A stretch of DNA of 64,000 nt, taken from the NCBI GenBank assembly GCA_009841615.1, contig VXLL01000028.1, positions 1 to 64,000 of the forward strand. The letters run 5' to 3'. The notes beneath the pieces were generated by a model that saw nothing but the letters and a program-made list of their open reading frames with translations, did not search any database and had not been told where the DNA came from. The first letter of the stretch is position 1, and the number at the start of each line of letters is the position of its first letter. This document shows, piece after piece, positions 14,327-21,221 of this stretch. Both the position numbers and the translations under genes were made by a program. The DNA is from Gammaproteobacteria bacterium. Its GTDB lineage: Bacteria > Pseudomonadota > Gammaproteobacteria > Pseudomonadales > Azotimanducaceae.

Positions 14327-14644
14327 CTACTCCTCGGTTGGTACTGGTAGCCAACGAATAGCTTCTGCGAATACGATTTCACTTCCAGCATAGATTTCTA
14401 GGGTCACCTTCCCAAAGTCCAAGTTGGATAAATAGAGGTGTGTTCCTGACGTACCCAAATCAAGGTATGACCGGAAAGGACGCTTGATTACACTATTTAG
14501 TGTTGTTTCAAAAGGAAGGTAATAGGACAACTGCCAGTCCCCCGAATTGGGCAATAATGCAGAAAATCGAGCGCTAGCAATCTTTTTACTTACTCTTCCA
14601 TCAGTCGACCGTGTTGCTCTTCGATGTTCGATCACGTGTCTCAA
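14327..14644 (-). pseudogene. Fragment of a golvesin C-terminal-like (carbohydrate-binding type) domain
   Basis: The frame encodes about 105 residues. The last 80 look like a beta-sandwich end: GDWQLSYYLP, then 'TSGTHLYLSN', 'GKVTLEIYAG' and a terminal V-x-AEAIRWLP. This order resembles the golvesin/Xly C-terminal domain found on secreted bacterial enzymes, whose last strand reads V-x-ADA-I/V-R. The N-terminal 25 residues do not fit, and the frame has no signal peptide or ribosome site, so I read it as the 3' remnant of a larger secreted protein. It is divergent from the LRR genes and may be debris of a former surface-protein locus. Confidence 0.4.
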
Positions 14645-14706
14645 AGGAGCAGGTGCGCGAGCCTAAACACGCTGGAATCACGTATACTAGTTCGAAGGAC
14701 ACCTGC

Positions 14707-15924
14707 ATGCAGAACTGCATACGAAAGACAAGAACAATGGTGCTGGGCGGCATTACAACAGCACTACTTCTAATTGATGTCGCTCCCGGTCAGGACCTTC
14801 CAATTAGTCCTTTTGAGCTCGGTGTGAATGATCGGGAGGAGGCATCGGAAGATCCGGCACAAGACCGTGAAGCTCTTGAAGCATTCTATCATGCAACTGG
14901 TGGGGACGAGTGGAAAAACAATGATGGTTGGTTAACGGACGCTCCGCTTAAGGACTGGTACGGCATCGGTGTGAGTCGCGGCAGAGTTTTTTTCCTTGGG
15001 CTAGAAGACAACAACCTCAAGGGCGAAATCCCCAAGGATATCTTCCTGCTAGACAACTTAAGTGAGTTAGATCTCAGATGGAATTTCATAACTGGTGGAT
15101 TAGAAAATCTGACAAGAATGTCCGAACTGAGTTATTTGCGACTTTCGGCAAATCAATTTAGTGGTCAAATCCCTGCGTCGATTGAGAAAATGACCAAATT
15201 GCGAACGCTCGACTTATCAGAAAACCAGTTTTCTGGAACAATCCCAACCCAGATCGGTGAGTTGCTCCGCTTAGAAGTTTTCACTGCACACAGCAACGAA
15301 TTGACGGGTAAACTGCCAGAAGAACTGTGTTATCCTCACAACCTTAAACGCATCGTACTTAGTCAAAATCAGCTTTCTGGTTCCATTGTTGAAACTGTGA
15401 TGAACTGCATTTCATTGCGACATCTGAATCTAGCAAATAACCAATTCGAGGGCTCCATCCCAGAGGAACTGACTTCGTCAGAACAAATGAATTGGTTGGA
15501 TCTTCGTGGGAACAAATTTGACGACGACGAACAACCGATCTTCAGAATAAACTTTCCTGGTCTCAACATTCAGCCTGTTCATGTTGACAAGCTGTACGGT
15601 CTCTCAATGTGGGGTAGGGGAAGTTTTGTAAGTACTAGTGAAGAGAGTAGCCTGGCCAGTGTAAAGTTTTTCAATGCCGTTTCTATAGAAAATGGCTTAC
15701 TGAAACTGGATGAGGAGAGGGTATCAGCAAACTCTGTTGATCGACTGAAAAAGAGAATAGACAATCTCAATTCGTACTTAGAAGCGACTGGTACTCGAGT
15801 TTCCACTTTATCGGACTTTGAACGCTCGTACGCAGGAGAACAAAAACACGCATTTCTCAACAAACTCAAAGAGTTAGACGCGCGTGCGAACATCCAAACG
15901 TGGGGAATACAGGGCGAGAGGTGA
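14707..15924 (+). CDS. Secreted leucine-rich-repeat protein (copy 1)
   Basis: I choose ATG 14707, preceded by GAAGGA at 14692-14697, over an upstream in-frame start at 14611. This gives 405 residues beginning with a Sec-type signal (TMVLGGITTALLLIDVAPG). The LRR N-cap is 'DREALEAFYHATGGDEW', with W and GW following. About seven plant-type repeats (LxxLxLSxNxLSGxIP) follow to about residue 255, and a non-repeat C-terminal region ends the protein. It shares its layout and many residues with the next gene, so the two are tandem paralogues. Likely cell-surface or secreted binding; the partner is unknown. Confidence 0.8.
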   Translation: MQNCIRKTRTMVLGGITTALLLIDVAPGQDLPISPFELGVNDREEASEDPAQDREALEAFYHATGGDEWKNNDGWLTDAPLKDWYGIGVSRGRVFFLGLEDNNLKGEIPKDIFLLDNLSELDLRWNFITGGLENLTRMSELSYLRLSANQFSGQIPASIEKMTKLRTLDLSENQFSGTIPTQIGELLRLEVFTAHSNELTGKLPEELCYPHNLKRIVLSQNQLSGSIVETVMNCISLRHLNLANNQFEGSIPEELTSSEQMNWLDLRGNKFDDDEQPIFRINFPGLNIQPVHVDKLYGLSMWGRGSFVSTSEESSLASVKFFNAVSIENGLLKLDEERVSANSVDRLKKRIDNLNSYLEATGTRVSTLSDFERSYAGEQKHAFLNKLKELDARANIQTWGIQGER

Positions 15925-16034
15925 TTAACGAAGTGGATTTCGACTCTTCGTTCTTTGCACACTTTGATATTTCAATTTTGAATCCGGCATAGCACGTGCA
16001 AGAGGCCAGTAACTCAGACATTAAAGATTGGATC

Positions 16035-17813
16035 ATGTATAGCAAAGCAAACAAACATAAGAGAACAGCACTCGCTGGTGGTGCGACAGTGTTCGTGTTA
16101 TTCGGTGTATGTGTGAGCCACGATATATCTAGCGGTCTAATTGCTCTTGGTGAATCAGCACGGGCGCAAGAAGTACAAGATTCGGCACAAGACCGCGAAG
16201 CGCTTGAAGCAATCTACCACGCGACTGGCGGCGACGAGTGGAAACACAACGAAGGTTGGTTAACGAAAGCACCGTTAGAGGACTGGTACGGTCTAAGGTT
16301 GAACAATGGACGTGTTATTTATCTTGAATTAAATGACAACAACCTCACTGGTGAAATTCCAGAGGATATCAACTCGCTGGAAGAACTAGCAGTTTTAGAT
16401 CTTAGATGGAATTCCCTTACGGGTGGGCTCGAAAATCTCAAAGATTTACCAAAGATAAGGGTACTGAAGTTATCTGCAAATAACTTCAGCGGTGCGATTC
16501 CAGCATCGATGGGTACATTGGATTCCATACAAGTTCTAGATTTGTCCGAGAATGAATTTTCTGGTTCAATCCCAAATGAACTTGGCGGGCTGATCAATTT
16601 AGAAGCATTTGCTGCCCATAACAATGTGCTGGAAGGAGAGTATCCGAAACGACTGTGTGACATTCAATCGTTAAGACGCGTAGTCCTAAGCGACAACAAT
16701 CTAAGCGGATCCATTTCTGACCTGTTGCTGAATTGTGAGGGATTGCAACACATACATTTAGCAAACAACAGTTTTGAAGGTGCAGTTCCTACAAGACTAC
16801 CGTCATCTGAACAGGTGAATTGGTTGGATCTTCGAGGGAACAATATAGACGAAAAAATTTATACAGTCTTGCAAATAAACTTTCCTGGAATCCTCATACA
16901 AACCGATCAAATTGGTGAAATTAACGGTCTAACCGTATGGGGGCGTGGAAGTTTCACATTCTTTCATGAACAGTTTCGGCTGGTATCTTTACGATATCTC
17001 AACGCTATTTCAGTAGAAGACGGTCGATTAAGGCTAGCGGAACCTCGAGTACCTTCAGAGCTACTAGACCAAGCCAAGGATTCGATAGACTTTGTCAACA
17101 TGCACCTAGATGACTCGAGCACTCAAATACAAACCGTGTCTGATCTTGAGCGATTTTTAGCAAAAGCGGAAAAGCGAGCACTGACTAACCAACTCAAGAA
17201 CTTAGGTTCGAAGCACAACGTGATTCGGAACGATTACTTCGAAGCACCCGACGAAGCAATCGATAAGCACGATTCGACACGACAGCCTCTAAAACCTGAT
17301 ATGTTTGTCGTTGATGTTGCTTCATCGAAGCTAATTTTTCGACACTCCCAATCACATGATGACTTACAAACTTCAAAAGGGCTGTCAGAGGACGACGATT
17401 CCGATGAAACAATGGCACCGACCTCCGAATCTAAATCTTCTTCACTTCGTTTCACAGCGAAGCTGAGCATGAGTGAACTGAATTTTTTAATAGATGGGGC
17501 TGTGTTTGCCTCCAATATAAACTACAAGTATATTGACGGTGAGGCTGGAAGGGTCACGATAAATTTCTACTGCGAAATTCATCATTTGCAGGAGTTCTTC
17601 GGAGTGGTAAATGTTACCTCAGGGTCAGAATTTCCCCATATGATTCGAGATGTTCATCCAGCTTCCGAGGATACTGAGATGAATGTTGTGGTGAATTTAA
17701 ATCTACCTGGATATTACTTTGCTCGTCTAACGGCAACTCCAAGATATCGCGTTACAAAATTCGAGCCCACTTTCGTAATGGTAGAATCACTCGCCCAGTA
17801 CTTCAGTAACTAA
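16035..17813 (+). CDS. Secreted leucine-rich-repeat protein (copy 2, longer)
   Basis: 592 residues from ATG 16035; an in-frame GTG at 15996 would add 13 residues before the signal peptide. The signal (TALAGGATVFVLFGVCVSH) is followed by the same N-cap as copy 1 ('DREALEAIYHATGGDEW') and about seven plant-type repeats with the 'GWGRGSF'-like motif after them (VWGRGSF). Beyond copy 1 it carries about 190 extra residues. These begin with an acidic, Ser-rich linker (EDDDSDETMAP) and end in a beta-rich domain of unrecognised family. The extension suggests that copy 2 gained a domain or copy 1 lost one. Confidence 0.8.
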   Translation: MYSKANKHKRTALAGGATVFVLFGVCVSHDISSGLIALGESARAQEVQDSAQDREALEAIYHATGGDEWKHNEGWLTKAPLEDWYGLRLNNGRVIYLELNDNNLTGEIPEDINSLEELAVLDLRWNSLTGGLENLKDLPKIRVLKLSANNFSGAIPASMGTLDSIQVLDLSENEFSGSIPNELGGLINLEAFAAHNNVLEGEYPKRLCDIQSLRRVVLSDNNLSGSISDLLLNCEGLQHIHLANNSFEGAVPTRLPSSEQVNWLDLRGNNIDEKIYTVLQINFPGILIQTDQIGEINGLTVWGRGSFTFFHEQFRLVSLRYLNAISVEDGRLRLAEPRVPSELLDQAKDSIDFVNMHLDDSSTQIQTVSDLERFLAKAEKRALTNQLKNLGSKHNVIRNDYFEAPDEAIDKHDSTRQPLKPDMFVVDVASSKLIFRHSQSHDDLQTSKGLSEDDDSDETMAPTSESKSSSLRFTAKLSMSELNFLIDGAVFASNINYKYIDGEAGRVTINFYCEIHHLQEFFGVVNVTSGSEFPHMIRDVHPASEDTEMNVVVNLNLPGYYFARLTATPRYRVTKFEPTFVMVESLAQYFSN

Positions 17814-18036: not shown

Positions 18037-19194
18037 ATACCAGCACTCCTTCCGCGAACTAAATTACAGCGGTGTATTCAACATGAACTGGTACGCCGAC
18101 CGGTCGTTGCTGTACTTGGGGCTCGACAAGTTGGTAAAACTACGGTCGCCCACCAAATAGCTTCTCAGACTGCAGAATCAACTACGCTACTTGAACTAGA
18201 ATCGCAGACAGCTCGAAGGGCTCTATCCTCCGCACCAGAATTTGTACTTAGGAATAGTACAGGGCTCGTGATCATCGATGACATTCAAAGGCAACCAGAA
18301 CTCTTAGCTATATTGAAACGCATCAGTGAGGACCCAAATAGACAAGCTCGATTCCTCCTATTCGGTAGTACTTCTCCTGAGTTAATACAACGTGTGTCTG
18401 AATCGCTCTCTCGAACGGTTCGATTTATCGACGCGAGCGGTTTCTCGTTGGATGAAATCGGGTACAACAACCAAAATAGACTGTGGTTCCGTGGAGGACT
18501 CCCACGGAGCTACCTATCCAAAGATGACGATGCCGCCCGTCGTTGGTTAGACTCTTTCGTAAGGTCATATTTAGAACGAGATGTCTTGTTGATAGATCCA
18601 CGAACGAATCCAGCTTTGGTGGAAAGATTCATGGGAATGCTCGCCCATCGCCAAGGATATACTTGGAATGCATCCGAAATTAGCGGCTCATTGGGAAGCC
18701 GGGATCGAATAGTCAATCGTTTTCGAGACATTCTGTTAGGCTCATTGATGATTCGCTCGCTGCCAGCTTGGTTAGACAATCTTGGAAAGCGGATAATTAA
18801 GAGTCCAAAGATATATCTCCGCGATAGTGGGATCCACCATTATCTGTTGGGTCTGACTAGCTTTTCGGAACTCTCGACGCATCCTAGTTTCGGCTCGAGC
18901 TGGGAAGGATTTGCCCTTGAGCAAACGTTAATTGCACACGGTGCTCACGACTCTTACTTTTATCGCACGCAACGTGGGACCGAACTTGATCTGCTACTAC
19001 TACGCAAAGGAAAGCGTTGGGGCTTTGAGTTTAAGTGCACGGACGCGCCTCGAACTTCAAAATCAATGCACATCGCCATCAAGGATCTAGAGCTCGAACA
19101 CCTCTGGACTATTTATCCAGGTACTCTGTCCTATTCCTTGACTGAGTCAATCACTGTTCTGCCCTTACGGGATGTAACTAGTTTAACCTTCTAA
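18037..19194 (+). CDS. DUF4143-type AAA ATPase with a non-canonical or lost start codon
   Basis: The frame is open from 18010 to 19194. Walker A GARQVGKTT is encoded at about 18118-18144, preceded by ELVRRPVVAVL exactly as in DUF4143 ATPases. Walker B is IIDDIQR, where the usual Glu is Asp. The C-terminal part has the DUF4143/PD-(D/E)xK-like end, 'GTELDLLLLRK...GFEFK'. No ATG, GTG or TTG exists in frame between the stop at 18007 and the P-loop. The first normal start (GTG 18268) would delete Walker A. ATA at 18037 sits where an ATG is expected and is one transition away, so the start may be ATA, CTG 18088, or lost. Its TAA stop lies inside the left target duplication of the TnpB element. Confidence 0.7.
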   Translation: MPALLPRTKLQRCIQHELVRRPVVAVLGARQVGKTTVAHQIASQTAESTTLLELESQTARRALSSAPEFVLRNSTGLVIIDDIQRQPELLAILKRISEDPNRQARFLLFGSTSPELIQRVSESLSRTVRFIDASGFSLDEIGYNNQNRLWFRGGLPRSYLSKDDDAARRWLDSFVRSYLERDVLLIDPRTNPALVERFMGMLAHRQGYTWNASEISGSLGSRDRIVNRFRDILLGSLMIRSLPAWLDNLGKRIIKSPKIYLRDSGIHHYLLGLTSFSELSTHPSFGSSWEGFALEQTLIAHGAHDSYFYRTQRGTELDLLLLRKGKRWGFEFKCTDAPRTSKSMHIAIKDLELEHLWTIYPGTLSYSLTESITVLPLRDVTSLTF

Positions 19195-19199
19195 ACTTT
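19191..19199. repeat. Target-site duplication, left copy
   Basis: CTAAACTTT immediately left of the TnpB element. The identical 9-mer lies immediately right of it (20541-20549). Bases 19192-19194 of this copy are the TAA stop of the DUF4143 gene. Confidence 0.8.
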
Positions 19200-19200
19200 G

Positions 19201-19222
19201 GGACTTATCCAGCTGATTAGAC
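19201..19222 (+). repeat. Left terminal inverted repeat of the TnpB element
   Basis: Bases 19204-19222 are a perfect reverse complement of 20519-20537. The outer GGA differs from GGT on the other end by one base. The tnpB stop codon (TAA on the minus strand, 19219-19217) lies inside this repeat. Confidence 0.85.
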
Positions 19223-20437
19223 AACTGATGACAATTTTAACGCTTCCTTGAGGCTGCTATTAATCAACGCTAGGTCAAGATAATAGTCTGACATCCCCTC
19301 CACGTTTTCGGAAAATTCCAGGACGCTGACCCCCAGCTGCCCTATTAAGTTGATTCCTTCTCGGCGAATATTCTTCGCGGCGTTCAAGTCTCTATTCAGA
19401 ATCGTACCGCAACTGAAACATTCCCAAGTACGGTCCGACAGAGTTAATTCTCTATTAACCGAACCGCATTCAAAACAGGTTTTGCTGGACGGACACCACT
19501 GATCGATTTCAACAAAGTGTTTTCCACGCCAAGCACACTTATATGCAACGAGTCGAGAAAATTCTCCTAGTCCTAAATCTTGCACGTGCTTTGCCAGTTT
19601 CCTGTTTTTCGTCATACCACTCACATTCAGTTTTTCTAAGATGACTGCTTGGTTCTCGTCAACCATCTTCGTGCTGGACTTATGTAAAAAGTCATGACGA
19701 CAATTTGCTACTTTTTCGTGTATTCGTGCTACTTTTAACCGTTGCTTAGTGCGCCGGTGTGATCCGAATTGTTTTCTTGATAAGGACTTTTGTGCCGTTC
19801 GCAACCGCGCGTGATATTTCATAAAGTGTCGCGGGTTCGCAATCCTGTTGCCGTTCGAATCGACTGCGAAGTCCTTGATTCCAACGTCAACACCAATTAC
19901 TTTGTTTTTGGGGATCGTTTTGTTTAGATTTGGTTGTTCGGCGCCGTCATCGACCAATATTGACACGAAATACGTATTTGTTGGAGTTTTCTTGAGCGTC
20001 ACGGTCTTGATTTTCCCGAGAAAATACCGATCTAAATTGATTTTCACCAGACCTAATTTCGGAATGTGAATCTTCCTACCCTTGAATTTCACGCCTTGTG
20101 GGTAATAACACGCTTGGTTGAGATCATGTTTCGACTTAAACACCGGGGCTCTACTGTGGCCGTTTTTATGGCGGGTATAACCATCCATCAAGTTTTTGAT
20201 CGCCTGATTTAATGACTGTGCGTACGCGCCAGTCAACCAGCGGTATTCATCCGTCATCTTTAGTCGCGCTAAATCGGTCGTCATTTCTATAAAAGACATA
20301 CGACGCTCTTTAATTGCGCGCAGATCTCGATTTGCAGCGAGATAATAGTTGTACGCCCACCGAACGGCACCAAACTCTCTCTCTAACACTTCCTGCTGGG
20401 ATCTAGTTGGATATATTCGATATTTAAACGCTTTCAT
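19217..20437 (-). CDS. tnpB: RNA-guided endonuclease TnpB
   Basis: 406 residues, full length. The split RuvC residues are all present: Asp184 in GVDVGIKDF, Glu268 in VILEKLN and Asp350 in 'LNRDLNAAKNI'. The zinc ribbon C321-x2-C324 ... C340-x2-C343 (CFECG, CFSCG) is intact. The N-terminal HTH/wedge region (KAFKYRIYPT) is typical. TnpB proteins of IS200/IS605 and IS607 elements are omega-RNA-guided nucleases; the omega-RNA normally spans the 3' end of tnpB and the element end. No tnpA (HUH or serine recombinase) is present. The stop codon is inside the terminal repeat, so the guide would be read from the neighbouring DUF4143 gene. Confidence 0.92.
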   Translation of the reverse strand: MKAFKYRIYPTRSQQEVLEREFGAVRWAYNYYLAANRDLRAIKERRMSFIEMTTDLARLKMTDEYRWLTGAYAQSLNQAIKNLMDGYTRHKNGHSRAPVFKSKHDLNQACYYPQGVKFKGRKIHIPKLGLVKINLDRYFLGKIKTVTLKKTPTNTYFVSILVDDGAEQPNLNKTIPKNKVIGVDVGIKDFAVDSNGNRIANPRHFMKYHARLRTAQKSLSRKQFGSHRRTKQRLKVARIHEKVANCRHDFLHKSSTKMVDENQAVILEKLNVSGMTKNRKLAKHVQDLGLGEFSRLVAYKCAWRGKHFVEIDQWCPSSKTCFECGSVNRELTLSDRTWECFSCGTILNRDLNAAKNIRREGINLIGQLGVSVLEFSENVEGMSDYYLDLALINSSLKEALKLSSVV

Positions 20438-20518
20438 TTGTACGGATAGCTTAACACAAAACAGAACAGATGGGAAATCAATGGCTTTTTAAATCAATCA
20501 ACTTGATCTTCAGAAATA

Positions 20519-20540
20519 GTCTAATCAGCTGGATAAGACC
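20519..20540 (-). repeat. Right terminal inverted repeat of the TnpB element
   Basis: Reverse complement reads GGTCTTATCCAGCTGATTAG and continues with AC; 19 bases match the left end exactly. It is directly followed by the second copy of CTAAACTTT. Confidence 0.85.
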
Positions 20541-20549
20541 CTAAACTTT
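20541..20549. repeat. Target-site duplication, right copy
   Basis: CTAAACTTT. On the minus strand this copy encodes the last codons of trmB (ACT AAA GTT read through to the TAG stop at 20543-20541). Confidence 0.8.
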
Positions 20550-21221
20550 AGTACGATCCCGCGAGTACGCGAAATCCCATATCTTCTGTCCGGCATCTAG
20601 TGCTTTTTGTCGATAACGAGACTGCGGAGGCGGTTCTATGAGATTGATTTCAATTTTATAAAACGAATCACTCATATTACTATGAATTTGCTCAGCGTAG
20701 TCACCCGCATCAGTAGCGATGTAAACAATACCAGTCGCTGACATTTTGCGATGTACAAGTGCTACAAACTCGGCATTAATCAATCTTCGGCGGTGGTGTC
20801 TTTGTTTTGGCCATGGATCAGGAAACAGAGCATAGAGCAAATCGATACTGTCATTTGGAATCACTTCTAGTACAGTCGTCGCTTCTTCCTCGACTATGCG
20901 AACATTTCTCAGTTCCGCGCGCTCACATCGGTTGACTAAAGCACCGATACCTGGTCGATAGACGTCAATCCCCAGACATTGCCAGGTTGGATTTTGGTTC
21001 GCTATATGCGCGATTACTTCACCATTACCGAAACCGATTTCGACAAAGACCTTTTCTGCTTGAGCTGTGAAATATTCTCGAAGATCTTGAGGTGCTAATC
21101 GATATTCAGGTAGGTTCGCGTATCCTTTAGCTTGTGCTTTCGACATGCGCGAGCTACGTCGAACATACAGTTGTCGTTGGTTGTAGGTGAGAGTGGAATC
21201 GGATTCCACTGACGATGGCAC
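20541..21221 (-). CDS. trmB: tRNA (guanine-46-N7)-methyltransferase
   Basis: 226 residues. It methylates G46 of tRNA using S-adenosylmethionine. Visible are the SAM-binding EIGFGNGE, then IDVYRPGIG, and the family signature FPDPWPKQRHHRRRL. The start used is ATG 21221; an internal ATG at 21146 (MSKAQAKGY) is possible. It follows rpoH by 14 bases and is probably co-transcribed. Its stop codon is in the right target duplication of the TnpB element, so insertion left it intact. Confidence 0.92.
   Translation of the reverse strand: MPSSVESDSTLTYNQRQLYVRRSSRMSKAQAKGYANLPEYRLAPQDLREYFTAQAEKVFVEIGFGNGEVIAHIANQNPTWQCLGIDVYRPGIGALVNRCERAELRNVRIVEEEATTVLEVIPNDSIDLLYALFPDPWPKQRHHRRRLINAEFVALVHRKMSATGIVYIATDAGDYAEQIHSNMSDSFYKIEINLIEPPPQSRYRQKALDAGQKIWDFAYSRDRTKV

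Follow-up and report, generated by a model that had tools for sequence, protein, structure and literature searches.

Mobile insertion cassettes consist of a passenger gene placed between the ends of an insertion sequence (IS), with no transposase of their own. TnpB has so far been explained via the excision cycle of IS200/IS605 elements. These elements have neither inverted ends nor a target duplication (PMC3119063). The model put forward for ISDra2 has TnpB cleaving the donor joint flanked by TTGAT (Karvelis et al., 2021, PMC8612924), and in plasmids the IS200/605 TnpB cuts IS-free copies and favours IS-bearing ones, which amounts to a gene drive (Mears et al., 2025, PMC11870625). In eukaryotes and the viruses that infect them, the Fanzor1 and Fanzor2* elements combine a TnpB-type protein with inverted ends and a target duplication; some of these are non-autonomous, and their duplication has been proposed to enter the RNA scaffold (Bao and Jurka, 2013, PMC3627910; Yoon et al., 2023, PMC10711439). 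Here we focus on a bacterial tnpB gene found in such a setting, within a 64,000-nucleotide stretch (the window) of the gammaproteobacterial assembly GCA_009841615.1 (family Azotimanducaceae; contig VXLL01000028.1, positions 1 to 64,000). It is one of a group of cassettes in which the base just outside the target duplication follows the TnpB clade, a signature that is probably the mark of a nuclease which cuts empty sites and spares its own junction.

The window cassette is confirmed as a tnpB-only unit with inverted ends and a target duplication, as first described:

19200 to 20541, strand not applicable: whole cassette, 1342 bp, with inverted ends and an 8-bp duplication; its place is empty in five congeners
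19200 to 19222, plus strand: left inverted end, GGGACTTATCCAGCTGATTAGAC
20519 to 20541, minus strand: right inverted end, GGGTCTTATCCAGCTGATTAGAC in the minus-strand reading
19192 to 19199: left copy of the 8-bp target duplication, TAAACTTT, containing the TAA stop of the DUF4143 gene
20542 to 20549: right copy of the 8-bp target duplication, TAAACTTT, containing the TA of the trmB stop TAG
19217 to 20437, minus strand: tnpB, 406 amino acids, ISDra2-like, with its stop codon inside the left inverted end

The ends are inverted over 23 bp and match at 22 of these (GGG[A/T]CTTATCCAGCTGATTAGAC). The preliminary description had given perfect 19-bp inverted repeats and a 9-bp direct repeat. The perfect 19-bp arms are present, but within these longer ends, which hold one mismatch; CTAAACTTT does stand on both sides, but the true duplication is the 8-bp TAAACTTT. 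Since the ends read GGG...CCC, the ninth matching base, the right-hand C at 20541, is the last base of the element. A nine-base duplication was rejected: symmetry of the ends requires one of 8 bp, which is also the length seen in other copies of the family. With up to three mismatches allowed, the 19-mer of the ends occurs in the 2.66-Mb genome of the window only at the two cassette ends, and its exact matches elsewhere are few, which excludes a chance origin of the inverted ends.

Among the open reading frames of the cassette, tnpB is the sole one of gene size, and no gene for an IS1595 DDE transposase is present. This is the layout of a mobile insertion cassette, a passenger gene between IS ends without a transposase; unlike in other such cassettes, the passenger is a predicted RNA-guided nuclease with an insertion-site signature. 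The product belongs to the TnpB fold family (Pfam and NCBIfam matches), with RuvC and zinc-ribbon motifs. ISDra2 TnpB (8bf8) matches it with an E value of 1.9e-63, and the D, E, D motifs, which we take to be catalytic, are kept in the alignment to a designed nuclease ranking above ISDra2 TnpB.

Like the Fanzor elements, the window cassette holds a TnpB-type protein within inverted ends and a target duplication. Fanzors, however, are eukaryotic proteins in eukaryotic transposon families, whereas here the genome is bacterial, the protein is closest to ISDra2-type TnpB, the ends are of IS1595 type and the flank signature is set by the clade. With ISDra2 TnpB it shares the protein family, an expected guide source in the flank at the tnpB 3' side and a TAM (transposon-associated motif) expected on the 5' side; it differs from ISDra2 and other IS200/IS605 elements, which make no target duplication, in its 23-bp inverted ends, its 8-bp duplication and the lack of tnpA in the unit. 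In the published IS1595 element ISApl4, GGGG ends of 14 bp are accompanied by AT-rich direct repeats of 8 bp (PMC12561309), and GGG-type inverted ends with an AT-rich 8-bp duplication are likewise found here, with tnpB in place of the transposase gene. No bacterial TnpB inside an element with inverted ends and a target duplication was noticed in the parts of the literature covered, which was mostly open-access and did not include ISfinder, and the only cases noticed there were eukaryotic.

The same ends recur elsewhere in the genus. Exact matches to the 19-mer in genome_contigs fall on seven stretches of two metagenome-assembled genomes, SB0666_bin_18 and Plut_88873, which match the same-genus genomes G008 and G013. 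Together these hold one intact copy of family I (the copies with the ends of the window cassette), with the 8-bp duplication AAGATTAT on both sides, and three copies split across contig ends, whose halves were paired through their duplications (AAATGAAG, ATTACTAA and AAATGATA). The five family I insertions share the same ends and have different 8-bp duplications, in keeping with the expectation that copies would be bounded by flanking duplications. A shortened end searched with three mismatches in two relatives gave forward/reverse counts of 12/7 and 2/6, and a backward control gave 10/9 and 3/6; because these counts resemble one another, only matches with zero to two mismatches are meaningful. 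A lone diverged family I end, TGGGATTATCCAGCTGATTAGTC, is seen in L029 at about position 1501 (G008:C56:2790), with no partner and no tnpB visible.

TnpB homologues are present in 13 of the 18 genomes of the genus. Our survey set comprised 43 tnpB loci from genus and family searches with both flanks available, loci at contig edges being excluded; most genomes consist of many contigs, many insertions lie at contig ends, and few families are involved. A strict test, which required an 8-bp duplication without mismatch and matches at 15 or more of 24 end bases, was passed by 20 of the 43 loci, compared with 0 of 200 swapped left-right half pairs and 0 of eight named plasmid loci, two of which adjoin an annotated IS200/IS605 tnpA. 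Allowing one mismatch in the duplication gave a weak rule (27/43 loci, but also 31/200 swapped pairs and 4/8 plasmid loci), which was not used for counts. The 20 passing loci represent ten end types (numbering by this analysis):

Type I (window): GGGACTTATCCAGCTG
Type II: GGGACTTATATACC
Type III: GGGACTTATAACCC
Type IV: GGGACTTCCGTAGATAAC
Type V: a diverged relative
Type VI: GGC[GT]CTTATGTAG
Type VII: GGTAGTGGCTCA
Type VIII: GGCTCAATTCCAG
Type IX: GGGAATTATGTAGCAAAATC
Type X: GGGATTTATATACGAAAC

Perfect examples of types IX and X come from other genera of the same family, and in every type the last base of the element on the tnpB 3' side is C. The preliminary description had proposed to look for copies with other cargo; seen here are cassettes that carry other TnpBs between comparable ends. 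The window's genome itself has three further tnpB genes: L011, a type IV cassette with ends and duplication, and L009 and L010, type VII cassettes with inverted ends and a duplication that is decayed or absent. In a search of 390 genomes of the order, TnpBs of the alpha clade (types II-V, VIII-X and relatives) were found, at E values of 1e-80 or better, in three, all of this genus.

Some individual loci deserve mention. The type VII cassette L009 (G000:C25, about 162.3-163.6 kb) seems to interrupt a gene, by eye sodium/solute symporter-like, and its two 8-bp flanks differ at two positions. In G009, the 8-mer TAAGAGAT adjoins the 5' end of a type VI copy on one contig and the 3' end of a second such copy on a different contig (L232, L186), as would result from recombination between copies or from chimeric assembly. 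In L271 (G008:C83, about 1437-1458), fewer than 25 bp separate the start of a tnpB cassette from a tRNA-Ser gene.

One rival reading is that of an ordinary IS200/IS605 or IS607 element lying between repeats by chance. In its favour, the TnpB is ISDra2-like, and the tnpB loci of the genus without such ends do branch with named plasmid TnpBs. For family I this explanation is refuted by five insertions with an identical end type and differing 8-bp duplications, and none of the 200 swapped pairs passed the strict test; as for IS607, whose elements have a serine-recombinase tnpA and neither inverted ends nor a duplication, the window cassette has inverted ends and a duplication and lacks a tnpA-sized frame. 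We consider such a chance arrangement extremely improbable.

The source of mobility was sought among the IS1595 elements of the genus. Matches to PF12762, the IS1595 DDE domain, occur in 16 of the 18 genomes, and 70 IS1595 loci were fetched. Both ends with a perfect 8-bp duplication were seen in five of these and a usable left end in 37, typically GGG[AG]ATTAT followed by a variable stretch. Type VIII ends (tnpB loci L096/L197) are near-identical to those of the IS1595 transposase locus L152, whose transposase domain match is weak (32 bits vs a cut-off of 27), and type IX ends (L210 and others) to those of the IS1595 loci L130 and L079. As judged from sequence, the tnpB units are IS1595-type insertion cassettes carrying TnpB, because their ends and duplication are IS1595-like and two types share near-identical ends with IS1595 copies. 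The preliminary description had spoken of a TnpB-bearing unit, similar to a miniature inverted-repeat transposable element, that is moved in trans by a DDE transposase. This is supported by the empty sites and by the repeated insertions with differing duplications, and it also fits the cassettes with other TnpBs and like ends and the IS1595 loci that share ends with two types. The full-length transposase expected to have the exact ends of the window cassette was not found: an autonomous IS with the same ends is seen for types VIII and IX, and for family I neither the window's own genome, where none of three IS1595 loci has such an end, nor the IS1595 loci of the genus offered a copy or transposase with its exact ends. 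The assignment of family I to IS1595 therefore rests on its end type and duplication length.

For the flanks, 43 insertions (a set distinct from the 43 strict-test loci) were aligned in tnpB orientation, with -1 denoting the base just outside the 5' duplication copy. The -1 base follows the TnpB clade. It is T in 5/5 type I and 9/9 type VII insertions (14/14; p 6.3e-7), G in 18 of the 19 alpha insertions (p 3.7e-7), and in type VI T in seven of ten, A in two and G in one. C is found in none of the 43 (p 2.1e-4 for its depletion), and 37 IS1595 insertions taken as a control are evenly spread (C 10, A 9, G 9, T 9). The association of clade and base was reached in 0 of 20000 shuffles. The control consists of the 37 of 70 loci with a recognisable GGG-type left end, hand-picked at the expected distance where there were several matches; L203 was retained as an exception, and L292 was excluded, its 5' end not having been found. 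Thirteen further alpha 5' ends outside the rule-forming set gave G in 12 and A at the remaining one, a decayed end. Eleven of these places had been known earlier with the 5' end unresolved or misplaced and two were new; their starts were identified by eye, with a later check by script, and the flanks of L289, L293 and L268 (earlier L221, L215 and L219) had been partly visible earlier. At one of them, L274 (G060:C12, about 1357-1440 in tnpB sense), a single tnpB has two distinct GGG-type ends upstream, 63 bp apart, possibly as nested cassettes, and both possible starts have G at -1. The duplications themselves start with GA in 9/9 type VII, A in 5/5 type I and T in 10/10 type VI insertions. This clade-specific signature is new and is absent from the first description.

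It could be argued that TnpB is passive cargo and that the -1 base reflects a target preference of the transposase. A symmetric preference is no explanation, because the corresponding position at the 3' side shows no conservation (2/13, 2/5, 1/4 and 2/8). An asymmetric one, with the two ends read differently and cargo and ends travelling together, is the strongest rival: each cassette type has its own ends, which would by itself correlate cargo with ends, and the IS1595 control mixes many subfamilies, with a usable left end in little more than half of its loci. Yet G is retained by the alpha clade in no fewer than seven end types (II-V, VIII-X), the IS1595 loci with type VIII or IX ends are inconsistent at -1 (L079 g, L130 a, L152 c), and so are small IS1595 subfamilies with alike ends (for example L142-L145 and L148: a, a, g, t, a). 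With these points weighed, passive cargo appears unlikely. Another possibility is that, in the manner of CRISPR-associated transposons, the transposase is directed to new targets by TnpB together with its RNA, the signature then being set at integration and not by retention. That the signature tracks the TnpB clade would agree with this, but the listed sites, as far as their flanks can be judged by eye, have no longer common sequence for a guide to match, and the guide would be expected from the old flank. We regard steered integration as highly doubtful.

What we propose instead, with a probability of roughly 70%, is that these are non-autonomous IS1595-type cassettes whose TnpB cuts empty sites and spares its own junction, the -1 base acting as a TAM-like position. 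In the window cassette the relevant features would be the following:

20550, minus strand: -1 base, T in tnpB sense, the proposed TAM-like position; T in 5/5 family I insertions
19200 to 19420, minus strand: proposed scaffold of the omega-RNA, comprising the inverted end and the 3' portion of tnpB, with few synonymous changes
19180 to 19199, minus strand: proposed guide source (left duplication copy and flank), by analogy with ISDra2 guides (PMC8612924)

An IS1595-family DDE transposase would move the cassette in trans, making the AT-rich 8-bp duplication. TnpB would be an active RNA-guided nuclease, with an omega-RNA spanning both the inverted end and the 3' end of tnpB and a guide read from the adjoining duplication and flank. 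Such a guide would match the empty site and the cassette's own 3' junction alike, since positions 1-8 are present again, as part of the duplication, next to the 3' end. Self and empty site differ only from -1 outward, so that a need for G or T at -1 would allow cutting of the empty site and forbid self-cutting. The TAM-like site would take in this -1 base, which is G or T depending on the TnpB clade. Because every cassette type ends in C, the -1 base distinguishes the empty site from the cassette's own 3' junction: in the filled 3' junction, the terminal C would replace the required base and self-cutting would be barred. Empty alleles, sister copies or excision products would be cut by TnpB and then repaired from the filled copy, and insertions without the right -1 base would be undefended and lost, leaving the observed signature. 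The reading follows the ISDra2 donor-joint model (PMC8612924) and the plasmid gene drive (PMC11870625); the effect proposed is the same as in the latter, where it was shown for IS200/605, and is extended here to cassettes that make duplications.

Further hints at an RNA come from the 3' part of the cassettes. Between the window copy and L087 there are 48 synonymous changes, 47 in the first 334 codons and one in the last 73; in types III, VI and VII, synonymous changes are also rarer in roughly the last 180-280 nt. In a consensus RNA model of type VI (12 sequences), the last six bases of the element pair with an internal hexamer, with one compensatory pair (G-C in six, U-A in five) that possibly reflects one event. 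In a comparison of 12 elements, the hexamer lying some 92-120 nt from the end fits the element's own end more closely than it fits shuffled ends (47/20000), which is only suggestive. The match is full only in types II, IV and VI; in III, V, VIII and X it is partial, and there some foreign ends do equally well or better. A search against Rfam gave no match at the gathering threshold.

Several observations weigh against the proposal. A one-base TAM would be unusual. The pairing of hexamer and end is poor in types I, VII and IX, and the predicted folding of the window RNA is no stronger than that of shuffled sequences (z 0.35 and 0.18). The family I signature is based on five insertions only, type VI has exceptions at -1 in three of ten, and L203 and L281 violate the G rule of the alpha clade. 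Of the surveyed tnpB loci, 23/43 fail the strict test, among them L009, L010, L097, L203, L215 and L219, which nonetheless have inverted ends. To these must be added the missing family I mobiliser described above.

In the TnpB protein tree (midpoint root), alpha (support 0.87), I+VII and VI form separate monophyletic groups, and the strict-test failures and named plasmid TnpBs branch between the three. The tree accords with at least three captures of TnpB by such cassettes; one early capture with later losses is possible as an alternative. On balance, we favour at least three uptakes of bacterial TnpBs by IS1595-type cassettes as retention or homing modules, in which RNA-guided cutting, not the transposase, would decide which insertions persist. 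Recognition would reach across the boundary of the target duplication, so that the terminal C would protect the filled junction.

The window cassette lies where two neighbouring genes converge:

18268 to 19194, plus strand: DUF4143 gene, left neighbour
20541 to 21221, minus strand: trmB, right neighbour

The preliminary description placed both stop codons in the repeat copies. This holds for the TAA of the DUF4143 gene (19192-19194) in the left copy, but the right 8-bp copy has only two of the bases in the trmB stop TAG (20541-20543, minus strand), the G of which is the last base of the element. When the element is removed the flank supplies an identical G, and the joined flanks show the predicted convergent genes with overlapping stops sharing TA. 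In the genus, trmB is present in 17 of 18 genomes, the window's genome counted, and at five of the 17 trmB loci the DUF4143 orthologue is the convergent neighbour, as in the window, with no element between the two genes. Each of these five has one 8-mer resembling TAAACTTT (one mismatch in three loci, two and three in the others) and about 15 extra bases ahead of the well-aligning part of trmB, so that the empty site is matched as an arrangement and not base for base. The empty sites anticipated in relatives thus exist as a junction in five congeners, with a single repeat copy that is only similar. As far as can be told from these alignments, the cassette moved into the trmB/DUF4143 junction. 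Elsewhere in the window, adjacent open frames of 437 and 605 amino acids (14611-17813, plus strand) appear by eye to encode related leucine-rich-repeat proteins, perhaps from a tandem duplication.

If the proposal is true, an RNA-guided nuclease can serve a bacterial DDE-type transposon, as Fanzors seem to do in eukaryotes, and the bacterial cassettes would be a prokaryotic counterpart of the Fanzor elements. It would account for how the nuclease discriminates between self and empty site even though the duplication regenerates the target. It also predicts a TAM base for each TnpB clade, a description of which was not found in the parts of the literature searched. With this, the use of TnpB to a transposon becomes testable by genome statistics.

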